From the NCBI GenBank assembly GCA_018303845.1, contig JAGVXH010000006.1, positions 1 through 52,488 of the forward strand: a stretch of 52,488 nt of DNA. The letters are read 5' to 3'. The position numbers and the translations under genes were made by a program. The stretch is from Candidatus Pacearchaeota archaeon. Lineage in GTDB: Archaea; Nanobdellota; Nanobdellia; Pacearchaeales; GW2011-AR1. The notes beneath the pieces are model-generated. The model made no database searches, was not told where the DNA came from, and saw only the letters and a program-made list of their open reading frames with translations. Positions within the stretch are counted from its first letter, which is position 1. Every line of letters starts with the position of its first letter. Below are positions 32,799 through 41,068 of the stretch, in pieces.

Positions 32799-32891
32799 GT
32801 GCGAAGCACAGCCCTCGTGATTGAAAATCACAACCCTCGGCGAAGCCAGCTATCGGCGAAGCCAGCCATCTGAAATTTCGCAGAAATTTCA
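32799..32891 (-). repeat. Row of five mini-hairpins with three-base loops
   Basis: Plus-strand reading: gtgc-gaa-gcac (32799-32809), gtgatt-gaa-aatcac (32817-32831), ggc-gaa-gcc (32839-32847), ggc-gaa-gcc (32855-32863), tgaaatttc-gca-gaaatttca (32871-32891, over the gyrB stop). Start-to-start spacing is 16-22 bases. Three contain GCGAAGC, known from DNA biophysics as an exceptionally stable mini-hairpin. They fill the whole gap between gyrB and the next ribosome binding site. Confidence 0.85.
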
Positions 32892-34811
32892 CAAATCCAC
32901 CTCCGCCTTATCCGCATTCTCTTCAATAAAAGCTCGTCGTGGAGCAACCGCGTCCCCCATGAGCAAACTAAAAGTCTCATCAGCCTCAACAGCATCCGCA
33001 ATCGAAACCTGCTTCAGTCTACGAGTCTTCGGATTCATCGTCGTATCCCACAACTGTTCATCATTCATTTCACCAAGACCTTTAAACCGACCAACTTCAA
33101 GTTTCCCGCCAAGCTCAGCCGATTTAGTTTTCAACTCTTCAGCATTATAAACATAATATTCCTTCATCCCTTTCTTAATTTTATAAAACGGAGCAACCGC
33201 AACAAAAATATGCCCGGCCTCAACCAACTGCGGCAAATACCTAAAAAACAACGTCAACATCAACGACTTAATATGCTGCCCATCAACATCAGCATCAGTC
33301 ATAATAATAACCTTATTGTAACGAAGCTTTGTTATATCAAAAGAATCCCCAACACCAGTCCCAATCGCCGTAATCATATTTGAAATCATCTCGCTAGAAA
33401 GCGCCCTCGACGGATTCGATTTCTCGACATTCAAAATCTTTCCACGCAAAGGCAAAATCGCCTGAGTCTCTCGGTCCCGTCCACCCTTAGCAGTACCACC
33501 AGCCGAATCACCCTCAACAATATACAATTCAGTATTCTCTTTTTTCTTCGAAGAACAATCAGCCAATTTACCAGGAAGCCCCGAACCAACACTCAATGCA
33601 TTCTTTCGTCTAACCAAATCTTTCGCCCTCTTAGCAGCTTCTCTAGCTTTTAATGCCGAAGAAGCCTTAACCAAAATCGCCTTACCAACAACGGGGTTCT
33701 CTTCCAAGAAATCAGTCAAAGCTACCGTCGCCATAGAATCAATAATTCCCTTAATCTCACTATTCCCAAGCTTAGTTTTAGTTTGCCCCTCAAACTGCGG
33801 ATCCTGCATCTTCACCGAAATCACAGCAGTAATCCCCTCTCGAACATCGTCCCCGCTAAGCTTTTGCCCTTTCTTCAAAACCCCTTTCTTTGTACCATAA
33901 TCATTAATCACCCTCGTCAACGCCGTCTTCAAACCAATAACATGCGTCCCACCCTCAATCGTATTAATCGTATTAACAAAACCCTGAATGTTCTCATTAT
34001 AAGAATCGCTATACTGAATCGCAACTTCAGCAACAGTCTTCCCCTCTTCTCTCTTAAAATAAATCGGCTTCTGATGAATCGCATTTCGCGTCTTATTCAA
34101 CCACTTAACAAACTCAACCAAACCACCCTCATAACGAAACGACTCACTCTTAATCAGCTCCTCTCTCAGGTCCTTAAAACTAATCTTCAACCCAGCATTC
34201 AAAAAACAAGTCTCTCTAAATCTCGTCGCAAGAATCTTATATTCAAAATCAAGCGTAGTAAAAATACTTTCATCTGGCATAAATGTAACCTTCGTACCAT
34301 GCTCCTCAGTCCCACAAGTTCCAATAACTTTCATATCGCCAGCCGGAACACCAATATTATAAGTCTGAGCATAAATCTTCCCAGCTTTCCGAACCTCAAC
34401 AGTCATCTCTTTAGACAAAGCTGCAACAACCGAAATCCCAACACCATGCAACCCGCCAGAAACTGCATAAGCCTTATTATCAAACTTACCACCAGCATGA
34501 AGCTTCGTAACAATAATTTCCATAGCAGGCCTCTTGTAAACAGGATGCATATCAACTGGCATTCCTCGCCCATCGTCCTCGACACTCACCGAACCATTCT
34601 TATTAATCGTAACCCGAATCTCTTCCCCCGCACCAGCCATATGCTCATCAACAGAATTGTCAACGACTTCGTAAACACAATGATGCAAACCATACTTATC
34701 AGTAGACCCAATATACATCCCAGGTCTTTTACGCACTGCCTCAAGCCCCTCTAAAACCTTAATATCTTTAGCCGCATACTCATCCTTTCCAGCAACAGAT
34801 TCATTTACCAT
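32889..34811 (-). CDS. gyrB: DNA gyrase subunit B
   Basis: A 640-aa ATPase subunit of gyrase. The start is Met at 34811 (MVNESVAGKDEYAAKDIKVL); the longer frame to 34859 would cover the TATA box (GTTTATAAAG). The GHKL ATP site has EVVDNSVDEHMAG and DDGRGMPVD with GGLHGVG; the transducer Lys region QTKTKLGN; the TOPRIM domain EGDSAGGTAKGGRDR and DADVDGQHI; and the tail FKGLGEMNDEQLWDTTMNP. It is the first gene of the operon gyrB - ribosyltransferase-like - zinc ribbon - gyrA. Confidence 0.97.
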   Translation of the reverse strand: MVNESVAGKDEYAAKDIKVLEGLEAVRKRPGMYIGSTDKYGLHHCVYEVVDNSVDEHMAGAGEEIRVTINKNGSVSVEDDGRGMPVDMHPVYKRPAMEIIVTKLHAGGKFDNKAYAVSGGLHGVGISVVAALSKEMTVEVRKAGKIYAQTYNIGVPAGDMKVIGTCGTEEHGTKVTFMPDESIFTTLDFEYKILATRFRETCFLNAGLKISFKDLREELIKSESFRYEGGLVEFVKWLNKTRNAIHQKPIYFKREEGKTVAEVAIQYSDSYNENIQGFVNTINTIEGGTHVIGLKTALTRVINDYGTKKGVLKKGQKLSGDDVREGITAVISVKMQDPQFEGQTKTKLGNSEIKGIIDSMATVALTDFLEENPVVGKAILVKASSALKAREAAKRAKDLVRRKNALSVGSGLPGKLADCSSKKKENTELYIVEGDSAGGTAKGGRDRETQAILPLRGKILNVEKSNPSRALSSEMISNMITAIGTGVGDSFDITKLRYNKVIIMTDADVDGQHIKSLMLTLFFRYLPQLVEAGHIFVAVAPFYKIKKGMKEYYVYNAEELKTKSAELGGKLEVGRFKGLGEMNDEQLWDTTMNPKTRRLKQVSIADAVEADETFSLLMGDAVAPRRAFIEENADKAEVDL

Positions 34812-34949
34812 CACAAATATTCCTCTTACACCAAAAAAACAACCTTTCTTTATAAACATTTAGGTTAAAAAATCAAAAACCAGCGTCGATGATTTTCAAA
34901 ATAAATAAAGTAAAATGTCTCAACCTAGAATACACTCATCTTGCAAAAA

Positions 34950-36972: not shown

Positions 36973-37113
36973 AATTACCAAACAAAACCAAATATTAAAA
37001 ATCTTCCCAAACAAAACCAAAACACTCAAACCTCCAAAATCTAAAGTCTAATTCTTCAAAAAAACAAAAATTCCTCACATAAAGTATAAATACTAGAAAT
37101 CTTTCTTTCGAAC
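36973..37113. promoter_or_regulatory. Divergent promoters of kae1 and disA
   Basis: The 141-base gap holds a TATA for kae1 (minus, centred near 36996) and gtataaata for disA (plus, 37084-37092), each about 24-26 bases before its ATG, so both genes look leaderless. Confidence 0.5.
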
Positions 37114-38157
37114 ATGGTGATAGAAAAAGACAAAACTTTCCTAGATTTCCTAAAATTGGTATCTCCAGGAACATCCCTTAGGAATGTAATAGACGATATT
37201 TTAAGGTCCGACCTCGGAGCACTAATTGTTTTCGACTCAAAAGAATTACAAGATCAAAATCTCTTCGAGGGTGGCTTCAGAATCAACTCAAGATTTACAT
37301 CCCAAAAACTTTTCGAGCTCTGTAAGATGGACGGAGCAATAATAGTTTCCCAAGATTTAAAACGGATTCTCTACGCCAACGTCTTAATGACACCAGGGAC
37401 AACCGCAAGTTCAATAGAAACAGGAACAAGGCACAAAGCCGCAGAACGAACAGCGAAACAAGCCCACACCTTCGTAATTGCAATTTCCGAAAGAAGAAAA
37501 AAAACTACTCTATACCACGGTGCATCTAGATATTATTTAAAATCAACCGAAGAACTAATTCGAAGCATAACATCAAATCTCCAACTTCTAGAAAAACAAC
37601 GTGAAATCCTAAACGATAATCTAGCAAACCTAAACATTTTAGAAATGTCAGAATTAGTCTCAGTCAGCGATGTTTGCCAAGTGATACAACGATCGGAAAT
37701 GATTCTAAAAATATCAGAATCGATGAAAAGGAATTTCACAGAACTAGGAAAAGAAGGAAGCATAATGTATATGCGATATAGAGAAATTTTAAAAGGTGTT
37801 GAAAAAACAGAAAACGAAGTTGTAAGAGACTATACAAGTATACCATTAAAAAGAGCAAAAACCCTTCTAACAAACTTGACATTTGAAGGACTGCTAGAAA
37901 CAGAATCGATAGCGAGACTAATTGTTGAAAAATCTCTTGAAGAAACAGTCTCTCCAAAGGGATACAGATTCCTCTCACATCTAGTTCTCTCAGCAAAAGA
38001 AATGTCACAAATAATAAAATTGAATAAAAATATAGATAACATCCTAAAAGCAGATTCGTCCTCGCTAGAACCAATTCTGAAGAACAGAAGCTCCGACACA
38101 TATGAAAAAATAAGAAAACTTAGAGAACAGATATTAAACGGAAAAATAATATGTTAA
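37114..38157 (+). CDS. disA: DisA-type diadenylate cyclase
   Basis: A 347-aa enzyme that joins two ATP into cyclic di-AMP. The N-terminal DAC domain (about 1-140) has the DGA motif (D73-G74-A75, KMDGAIIVSQDL) and the nucleotide motif GTRHKAAERTAKQ (R106-H107). The linker domain spans about 150-280. The C-terminal domain resembles DisA's helix-hairpin-helix domain (KGYRFLSHLVLS), but the DNA-binding GIG turn is replaced by LKNRSSDTYEK, so binding of branched DNA may be lost. It overlaps the DHH gene by seven bases, a tight operon. DisA is a bacterial family; euryarchaeal DacZ is a different architecture. Confidence 0.93.
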   Translation: MVIEKDKTFLDFLKLVSPGTSLRNVIDDILRSDLGALIVFDSKELQDQNLFEGGFRINSRFTSQKLFELCKMDGAIIVSQDLKRILYANVLMTPGTTASSIETGTRHKAAERTAKQAHTFVIAISERRKKTTLYHGASRYYLKSTEELIRSITSNLQLLEKQREILNDNLANLNILEMSELVSVSDVCQVIQRSEMILKISESMKRNFTELGKEGSIMYMRYREILKGVEKTENEVVRDYTSIPLKRAKTLLTNLTFEGLLETESIARLIVEKSLEETVSPKGYRFLSHLVLSAKEMSQIIKLNKNIDNILKADSSSLEPILKNRSSDTYEKIRKLREQILNGKIIC

Positions 38158-39194
38158 ACGCAAACCAACTGACCCAAATCCGCGACCAACTTGAAACATC
38201 ACAAAATCCCCTTTTCTTCTACGATAACGATGTAGATGGACTCTGCTCATTTCTAATCTTAAGAAGATCTCTAGACAGAGGACGCGGCGTAACAATAAAA
38301 TCCTTCCCAGATCTAGGGGAACAATACATACAAAAAGTAGAAGAATTAAACCCAGACTTAATCATAGTCCTAGATAAGGCAGAAGTAAGCGAAAAATTTG
38401 TAGGCCATGCAAAAATCAACAATATACCAATTCTCTGGATCGATCACCACGAATCAAAAACCAGAAAAGAAATAATACAACAAACATCCTACTTCACAAC
38501 ATTTCCTTCCGCCGAACCAACTTCCTATATAGCACAAAAAATATTCAACCGCCAACAAGATATTTGGCTTTCCATAATCGGATGCATCGGGGACGTATAC
38601 TTGCCAGACTTCGCAGAAAAATTCAGCAAACAAAATCCAGATCTTCTACCTCTAAACATCAACGCCTTCACCGCACTCCAAACAACAACAATCGGCAAAA
38701 TCGCAAGGAAACTAAATTTTGGACTAATGGACACAACAACAAACATACTTGGGCTAATCAAATATCTTTTTAATTGCAATTCTCCCTACGACCTCCTCGA
38801 AGAAAACGCCTCCACAAAACAATTTCACAAAAGATCAAACCAACTAGAAGAATTCTTCCAAAAACAAATAGAAAAAGCGGAAACCCATTTCAACAAAAAT
38901 TCCAAAGTCCTCTTTTTTACCTATTCTGGTAATACATCAATGTCATCCGAAATCTCAAATAACTTAGCCTTCCGTCATCCAGACTCTCTAATTATAGTCG
39001 CCTTCCTCCGACCAGAAAAAGCCAACATCTCAGTCCGAGGGAAAAACGCACTAGAAATAACAAGAGCAGCGACAAAAGATATTCTAGGAGCAACAGGCGG
39101 TGGGCACTGCGAAGCCACAGGGGCCATGGTTCCAATTTCAGACTTCGAAAAATTTAAAGAGAACATAAAGAATCTAACGACAACTCAATATTAG
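38151..39194 (+). CDS. DHH-DHHA1 phosphoesterase, probable c-di-AMP phosphodiesterase
   Basis: A 347-aa protein. DHH domain motifs are YDNDVDGLCSFLILRRS, VLDKAEVSE and the name-giving IDHHES; the DHHA1 domain ends with GATGGGHCEATGAMV. This is the two-domain layout of GdpP/Pde2/NrnA enzymes that open c-di-AMP or digest short RNA. Fusion-like coupling with disA makes c-di-AMP or pApA the likely substrate. A RecJ/NrnA-like nanoRNase role is the main alternative. No PAS or membrane part is present, so it is cytoplasmic. Confidence 0.88.
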   Translation: MLNANQLTQIRDQLETSQNPLFFYDNDVDGLCSFLILRRSLDRGRGVTIKSFPDLGEQYIQKVEELNPDLIIVLDKAEVSEKFVGHAKINNIPILWIDHHESKTRKEIIQQTSYFTTFPSAEPTSYIAQKIFNRQQDIWLSIIGCIGDVYLPDFAEKFSKQNPDLLPLNINAFTALQTTTIGKIARKLNFGLMDTTTNILGLIKYLFNCNSPYDLLEENASTKQFHKRSNQLEEFFQKQIEKAETHFNKNSKVLFFTYSGNTSMSSEISNNLAFRHPDSLIIVAFLRPEKANISVRGKNALEITRAATKDILGATGGGHCEATGAMVPISDFEKFKENIKNLTTTQY

Positions 39195-39325
39195 AATTCA
39201 CCATTCAAAATCAAAACTCAAAGCTTTATAAATTTTATTCCTAAAATTAAACCCTAATATACTATCCTCAAAACGACAAATACTTATAAGCTCAGAAAAT
39301 TTCTTCTTGTATGGGAGGAGTGCTG

Positions 39326-41068
39326 ATGACAAAAAGATGCAAAAAAGAAACGCGTCTTTTCCCTTGTCCAAAAAAAACAAATCAACTTCCAAAAAAAACA
39401 AATTCTCATTTCAAAAATATTCCAATTCCTACATCTTCATCAAAAATACAAATTTTAGAAAATATAATAAAAGCAGAACGCAAAAAAACAGCAAATCAAA
39501 TAAAAAATTCCATAACAAAAGAAGAAAGAAAAGCGAATGTTCAAGACTGGAAAAACAAAATCGCGCCACAAAAAGAAATAATGCAAGATTTAATCTCGAC
39601 AATAATAAAAAGTCCAATGTCTCTGATAGACAAAGACATGGCCTATACATTCGACATAATGGCAGTAGAAGGTCGTGCAGAAAACGCACATGGAACATTT
39701 GAATCCCATTATCCCAATACAACAAAAACCGATGTGCTGAATGCAATAACAAAAGCAGATCCAGCCCAATTAAGAGAATACTATGCAAAAACAGGAATAC
39801 AAAAAGAATCCAAGGATTTAGTAAATTACCTAAAAGAGAATTTCACAAAAATAAAATTTCAAAATAGAGTCCAAGGATATATAGATTCTATAGTAGAATT
39901 ACAAGAAGATTGGCTCGAAGGAATAGAAAAAAACATATCTACAATAGATAAATACTCAGATTCTATAGTTTTCAAAAATAGTAAAAATGGTGCTCCAAAC
40001 AAAATGTCTTGTCTCAAAGGAATGGAAGTAAATATGTTAGCATGGTTAAGAGGAGCTTATCTTACAGCCAGCATGGACACGCTTAGAGGAATAAGAGATG
40101 AAGGATTCAAAAAATACGGAAAACAAACAGGAGGAGGAGAGGGTTATCTAATTAACATGAAAAAACTACAAGAATATGGAATAGATTTAAACGACTTATC
40201 AAAAATGAACTACAGAGGCGCACTTGAACCACTAAATAATATGCCACATGACAAAAGACTAGACATCTTAGAAAATCTTAAAATCATAACAAGAAAAAGT
40301 CTTCCCTTAGAAGACATCGCGCAAGGGGAATACACTTGGGAAAAAATAAAGACACATCCAGGCACAACAAATCTACAAAAAAATCCAGGATTTGAAGACC
40401 AATACATAAGAGAAGAAAAAGGACTCGGAGTAGGAGACGACAAAGTAATTTTCATGTGCGGGTTTCTCCCGCAAGAATTCTATAAAGATGGACATAAAAG
40501 ATCCGGAACAGAAACGGAATCAGGAATACTTGGCGGACTATCAAGCGATTTTATAGATACAGTATCAAAAAGCTCACACATCATCATGCCAGGAGGACAA
40601 GATTACATAGCCGGACTTCATTTAAATGGAAGATGGAAGAAACTTGCTCAAGATAAAAGAGTCAGAAACAGATTCGGAATAAGAGAAAACCCCGACGGAG
40701 ATTATGATTTATTAACTAAAGACCAACTGATAGCCTACACCATGGCAGGAGCAAACACAATAGGAAAAACATTACACTCTTCTCAAAGACATTTCTTTCT
40801 AGACAAACCAGGAGAAACATGCATGGTATCTGAACTCCTAAAACTTGGATACGCCCATGCCATGATACGTGGAATACCAATGGATTTAAACAATATAAGA
40901 AATTTTAAAATAAATTTAGGAAAAAACTTTGACGAAACAAAATTCACATTTGAAAGTAAACCATTAAGAGAAATAAAACCAATGCTGAACGAATGCCTAA
41001 ATCTAGTCGACACTCCAACCCAGCAACAACGAGAAGACAACCTCCGAAAATTCTATCTCCCAAACTAA
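39326..41068 (+). CDS. Large unrecognised protein, 580 aa
   Basis: The start is Met at 39326 (MTKRCKKETRLFPCPKKTNQ), with GGGAGGAG seven bases upstream; the earlier ATG at 39311 overlaps that site. A TATA (cttataagc, near 39285) predicts a short leader. The N-terminus is basic; the rest is soluble and mixed. Striking parts are VEGRAENAHGTFESHYPN, SHIIMPGGQDYIAGLHLNGR, YTMAGANTIGKTLHSSQRHF and GYAHAMIRGIPMD, which look like conserved catalytic or ligand segments with several His. No family is recognised. G is about as common as C in the coding strand, unlike neighbouring plus-strand genes. Confidence 0.78.
   Translation: MTKRCKKETRLFPCPKKTNQLPKKTNSHFKNIPIPTSSSKIQILENIIKAERKKTANQIKNSITKEERKANVQDWKNKIAPQKEIMQDLISTIIKSPMSLIDKDMAYTFDIMAVEGRAENAHGTFESHYPNTTKTDVLNAITKADPAQLREYYAKTGIQKESKDLVNYLKENFTKIKFQNRVQGYIDSIVELQEDWLEGIEKNISTIDKYSDSIVFKNSKNGAPNKMSCLKGMEVNMLAWLRGAYLTASMDTLRGIRDEGFKKYGKQTGGGEGYLINMKKLQEYGIDLNDLSKMNYRGALEPLNNMPHDKRLDILENLKIITRKSLPLEDIAQGEYTWEKIKTHPGTTNLQKNPGFEDQYIREEKGLGVGDDKVIFMCGFLPQEFYKDGHKRSGTETESGILGGLSSDFIDTVSKSSHIIMPGGQDYIAGLHLNGRWKKLAQDKRVRNRFGIRENPDGDYDLLTKDQLIAYTMAGANTIGKTLHSSQRHFFLDKPGETCMVSELLKLGYAHAMIRGIPMDLNNIRNFKINLGKNFDETKFTFESKPLREIKPMLNECLNLVDTPTQQQREDNLRKFYLPN

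Follow-up and report, generated by a model that had tools for sequence, protein, structure and literature searches.

DisA is usually treated as a bacterial DNA-checkpoint enzyme, an octameric assembly in which the synthesis of c-di-AMP is inhibited by branched DNA. The solved structures from Thermotoga maritima (3c1y) and Mycobacterium (9y4s, 7y0d) share a common layout, with a diadenylate cyclase (DAC) domain followed by a linker and C-terminal helices. In the two bacterial loci compared here, disA adjoins radA, yacL or ispD. The archaeal cyclase classes that have been named are DacV to DacZ, all of them other than DisA (PMC6741144), and one of these, DacZ (CdaZ), carries a non-DisA part at its N-terminus and the DAC domain at its C-terminus. 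A literature search that combined DPANN names with DisA or with diadenylate cyclase turned up no discussion of an archaeal DisA, though a mention in print may exist. Among the DHH phosphoesterases, NrnA, CnpB, Pde2 and GdpP combine DHH and DHHA1 domains with a GGGH motif, while archaea have RecJ, RecJ2 and GAN, as well as a DHH pAp phosphatase of known structure (8a8k). The DHH pApase of Pyrococcus yayanosii is specific for pAp, and leaves both c-di-AMP and pApA uncut (PMC8268124).

The window, meaning the whole stretch of 52,488 nucleotides that was analysed, is an entire contig of a Candidatus Pacearchaeota archaeon (GCA_018303845.1) with a genome of 1.09 Mb that is 80% complete. It carries a disA gene that, in contrast to the two bacterial ones, adjoins a gene for a DHH/DHHA1 phosphoesterase. 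A preliminary description of this locus had proposed that the two genes form a compact module for the synthesis and breakdown of c-di-AMP.

DisA and its C-terminal domain

The disA gene (37114–38157; this and all other features of the pair are on the forward strand) encodes a protein of 347 aa that, judged by its sequence, is a DisA homologue by descent. It scores 304.9 bits against the family model NF010009 (cut-off 201), and Pfam searches place both the DAC catalytic domain (residues 26–136, 37189–37521; PF02457, 83 bits) and the DisA linker or spine domain (residues 142–270, 37537–37923; PF10635, 87.4 bits) well over their cut-offs. Its relatives in the PDB are the DisA proteins of Thermotoga maritima and mycobacteria, and in a fold search the solved DisA structures match the AlphaFold model (mean pLDDT 90.3) over its full length, with TM-scores of 0.75–0.86. 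The family assignment is therefore as first described, and so is the distinction from DacZ, with which the protein has a DAC domain in common: it reaches 14.9 bits against a DacZ cut-off of 430, and that identity was rejected.

Both catalytic motifs had been described as intact, and the alignment agrees. The first, K71-M72-D73-G74-A75, includes the DGA motif (37330–37338); the second, GTRHK at residues 104–108 (37423–37437), is the RHR motif with K as its third residue. The residues D73, G74, R106 and H107 are conserved in all 80 Pacearchaeales DisA proteins that were aligned. In the third RHR position 65 of them have K, 11 have Q and 4 have R, so that K is what this group normally has, setting it apart from bacterial DisA. 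Given these motifs and the fold, the DAC domain would convert two ATP to c-di-AMP. A TATA-box-like element, TATAAATA (37085–37092), can be read in the sequence, centred some 26 nt upstream of the disA start codon, a position that would be compatible with a leaderless disA transcript.

The C-terminal HhH domain (residues 294–341, 37993–38136) is degenerate. Where the bacterial protein has the GIG turn, the window DisA has KNRSS (near residues 323–327) plus a two-residue deletion, bearing out the earlier report that the turn is gone. The bacterial EGIG hairpin has lost both of its E-G residues in 80/80 Pacearchaeales proteins, so the whole order shares the change and it is not peculiar to a single sequence; a lone G is left at the hairpin site in 22 of the 80. 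A C-terminal HhH domain with the GhG hairpin for branched DNA was found neither in the window DisA nor in any of the 80 members of the order. In the window model, residues 315–341 form a single continuous helix, compared with the helix-turn-helix of DisA. The loss of the EGIG hairpin suggests that DNA binding has probably been lost throughout the Pacearchaeales. With its HhH tip lacking the hairpin, the enzyme is probably blind to DNA junctions, and must then have some other form of control. The view of the preliminary description, that the window DisA acts without DNA scanning, is a reasonable one, and homology to DisA should not be taken as proof of a DNA-scanning DisA. An archaeal DisA that lacks the DNA-binding turn across an entire order would represent a natural experiment, parting cyclase activity from DNA scanning.

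In an even draw of 371 genomes across the phylum, DisA was found in 61, of which 60 belong to the Pacearchaeales, the order of the window; it is also present in 33 of 56 relatives. A phylogeny had been called for in the preliminary description. In a quick tree, with SH-aLRT support only and seven sequences on the bacterial side, the DisA proteins of the order form one group apart from the bacterial ones, and the DHH-linked members sit on early archaeal branches. DisA appears to be ancestral to the Pacearchaeales. The archaeal host was also correctly identified, as the close named relatives are MAGs of Candidatus Pacearchaeota or Nanoarchaeota. Contamination by a bacterial contig was considered and rejected, since the genes flanking disA are archaeal (Kae1/TsaD-like, deoxyhypusine synthase) and the locus occurs in many independent MAGs. 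Elsewhere in the window there is a DNA gyrase subunit B-like frame (32889–34859, 656 aa), along with ribosomal-protein-like and TsaD-like genes. Two MAG records, titled bacterium and Patescibacteria (L067, L088), bear the DisA locus of the Pacearchaeales; both are probably archaea under a wrong label. In another genome (G016; L091/L022) an in-frame TAA splits DisA into frames of 169 and 191 aa, reflecting either a pseudogene or an assembly error. The sole carrier outside the order (G110) belongs to another family of the class, and its DisA retains the hairpin, AIKSIGNKKAKAI. Its gene (L184:4101–5111) lies directly 3' of an ion-channel-like gene with a weak match to PF00520 (Ion_trans), the two together spanning L184:3389–5111, and is 193 kb away from the DHH gene.

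The DHH/DHHA1 protein

The second gene (38151–39194) also encodes 347 aa, and its description as a DHH-DHHA1 phosphoesterase holds: the protein matches PF01368 with 36.9 bits (cut-off 28.1), and DHHA1 with 24.7 bits, just below the cut-off of 25.9. Motifs I–IV of the superfamily are present, together with GGGH. In the alignment, D25, D27, D29 and G30 of motif I (D25-x-D27-x-D29-G30, 38223–38240) are invariant, as are D98-H99-H100 of motif III (38442–38450) and G317, G318 and H319 of the GGGH motif (residues 316–319, 39096–39107). The last of these is shared with NrnA, CnpB, Pde2 and GdpP, and the DxDxDG form of motif I with archaeal RecJ, RecJ2 and GAN.

The best PDB profile matches are archaeal RecJ-type proteins, and a profile search extended to E 10 returned no chain named NrnA or GdpP, and one named only 'DHH family'. 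By fold, RecJ-Cdc45 of Methanothermobacter and RecJ2 rank first. The archaeal pAp phosphatase 8a8k, with the same DHH/DHHA1 layout, is of the same size class and fits the length of the protein best (target TM-score 0.71–0.73, with 16% of residues identical once the folds are aligned). The fold match to NrnA/Pde2 is weaker, 8iu7 giving query TM-scores of 0.43–0.50 against about 0.6–0.7 for RecJ. In a small tree, which with its few references and long branches can serve only as a guide, NrnA and GdpP fall together (support 96/91) and apart from the window protein, and the window family is also distinct from RecJ.

A canonical RecJ or GAN identity was rejected: the protein scores 50.2 bits against a cut-off of 360 for RecJ_archaeal and 17.7 against 850 for GAN, and separate RecJ proteins occur in the same genomes. 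It is also some 100 aa shorter than archaeal RecJ, RecJ2 and GAN. Grouping with RecJ/GAN had been named beforehand as an outcome that would count against the module; by profile and fold the DHH protein is indeed nearest to archaeal RecJ, yet it forms a family of its own. None of the five DHH proteins in the source genome is visibly of the NrnA or GdpP type. The protein at C3:69694 of this genome, considered as an NrnA-type rival enzyme, was set aside, as it reads like a manganese-dependent pyrophosphatase (DHHA2 type). A search for literature on the structures 7BHI and 9R7O found none.

Linkage of the two genes and its interpretation

The end of disA and the start of the DHH gene share seven bases, ATGTTAA (38151–38157), with the DHH ATG at 38151, exactly the overlap that had been reported, and the two genes are probably co-transcribed. 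Just past the pair lies a frame of 585 aa (39311–41068) with no Pfam match. The synteny survey proposed at the outset finds the linkage to be recurrent. Among the best 80 named DisA loci, 76 have enough downstream DNA, and 60 of these carry a DHH gene on the same strand downstream of disA, in 50 as the very next gene and in 10 slightly further on, while 16 are without it; in many of the genomes the two genes overlap or stand only a few bases apart. As these loci come from close kin they overstate linkage, and the even sample is preferred: here 31 of the 61 DisA genomes are linked (26 directly, 5 within 2 kb), another 26 have the DHH gene elsewhere or on a different contig, and 4 have none, with presence scored at E 1e-60. 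The adjacency is far above chance. It has been retained in 55/77 cases, compared with 31/76 for the upstream pair and 32/74 for DHH–ProRS, and it survives changes of the flanking genes, with Kae1/TsaD upstream in the genus of the window and, in other genomes, either deoxyhypusine synthase or a PLP decarboxylase. That the pair outlasts its neighbours in this way favours a benefit of some kind from linkage. There are about 8–12 linkage changes on the DisA tree, most of them readable as losses, and the genes are probably an ancestral pair that has recurred widely and been lost repeatedly.

The DHH family has a far wider distribution than its neighbour. At E 1e-60 it occurs in 303 of the 371 genomes, against 61 with DisA and 105 with any DAC domain; in at least 198 genomes, then, the DHH gene is present but no DAC was detected. 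It is found in 57 of the 61 DisA genomes and in 246 of the 310 others. The locus is retained without DisA in G019, G020, G022, G024 and G032, among others, and in several DisA-less genomes the order runs deoxyhypusine synthase, PLP decarboxylase, DHH, ProRS, DisA being cleanly missing. The catalytic motifs are equally well kept whether or not the genome has DisA. A protein so much commoner than DisA cannot serve solely to destroy its signal, and adjacency alone is not sufficient to name it a c-di-AMP phosphodiesterase.

The reading we favour, with confidence that goes about halfway, is that the archaeal DisA is probably blind to DNA and is transcribed together with a general DHH/DHHA1 phosphoesterase of greater age. 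The ancestor of the Pacearchaeales would have had a DisA-family cyclase whose gene immediately preceded the DHH/DHHA1 gene carried by most Nanoarchaeia, and the product of the latter would be a housekeeping enzyme that acts on short nucleic acids or on small by-products of nucleotide type. Where it is co-expressed with DisA, this enzyme would probably also clear c-di-AMP or its first product, pApA, as a side task. Three observations tell against this: about half of the DisA genomes in the even sample are unlinked to DHH, the archaeal DHH pApase of comparable size cuts neither c-di-AMP nor pApA (PMC8268124), and a common receptor domain is scarce in these genomes (see below).

It is also quite possible, if short of an even chance, that the DHH protein is unrelated to c-di-AMP, being a class-wide housekeeping nanoRNase, pAp phosphatase or RecJ-like enzyme to which disA is an inherited neighbour. 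In its favour, the DHH family occurs in the 198 or more genomes without a DAC gene, and locus and motifs are unchanged where DisA is missing; the 8–12 linkage changes, the closest folds (RecJ and 8a8k) and the inactivity of the archaeal pApase on c-di-AMP (PMC8268124) also point this way. The persistence of the adjacency through many flank changes, and the overlap or close spacing of the genes in many genomes, are harder to reconcile with it.

The module as first proposed, with a dedicated synthase and phosphodiesterase, is improbable. What stands is the overlapping, recurrent pair with a true DisA, and both the compact overlap and the more frequent occurrence of DHH in DisA genomes would agree with the proposal, but the phosphodiesterase half was rejected as the main reading given the spread of DHH far beyond any DAC. 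The separation from NrnA and GdpP in the tree (long branches notwithstanding) and the profile search to E 10 weigh against it as well. Very improbably, the terminal helix at the end of archaeal DisA could be a new element for binding a partner, and might for instance dock the DHH protein onto the DisA assembly so that both work as one complex. The C-terminal tail (LREQ...GK) is retained across most of the order where GIG is lost, but a similar tail occurs in DisAs unlinked to DHH. In one genome from another family of the class (G064, L187:1197–4863) a DacZ-like cyclase gene precedes a member of this DHH family by a few genes, possibly an independent association.

Signalling context

The TrkA_C (RCK_C) domain was not found in the source genome at its 80% completeness, while 13 of 14 control genomes have one, and it is found in just 5 of the 56 relatives. 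No standard c-di-AMP target is thus known here, which counts against the favoured reading of a DisA with a general phosphoesterase. As for the receptor search that had been suggested, CBS proteins are present and would be the first candidates, with five matches in three proteins, one of them IMP-dehydrogenase-like by reading. A broader scenario, which we consider unlikely, is that DisA in the Pacearchaeales changed from a DNA-integrity sensor into a c-di-AMP synthase that works independently of DNA and answers to a new control input, together with an uncharacterised DHH lineage coupled to it and degrading c-di-AMP or pApA and operating without the usual RCK_C receptors in archaea of small genome size.

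The source genome also encodes a second diadenylate cyclase (L002:1432–2025, equal to G000:C6:4379–4972), a protein of 197 aa with a DAC domain and a hydrophobic C-terminal hairpin. A gene of the MgtC family lies directly 3' of it, and many other genomes in the order have similar frames, about 195–216 aa long.
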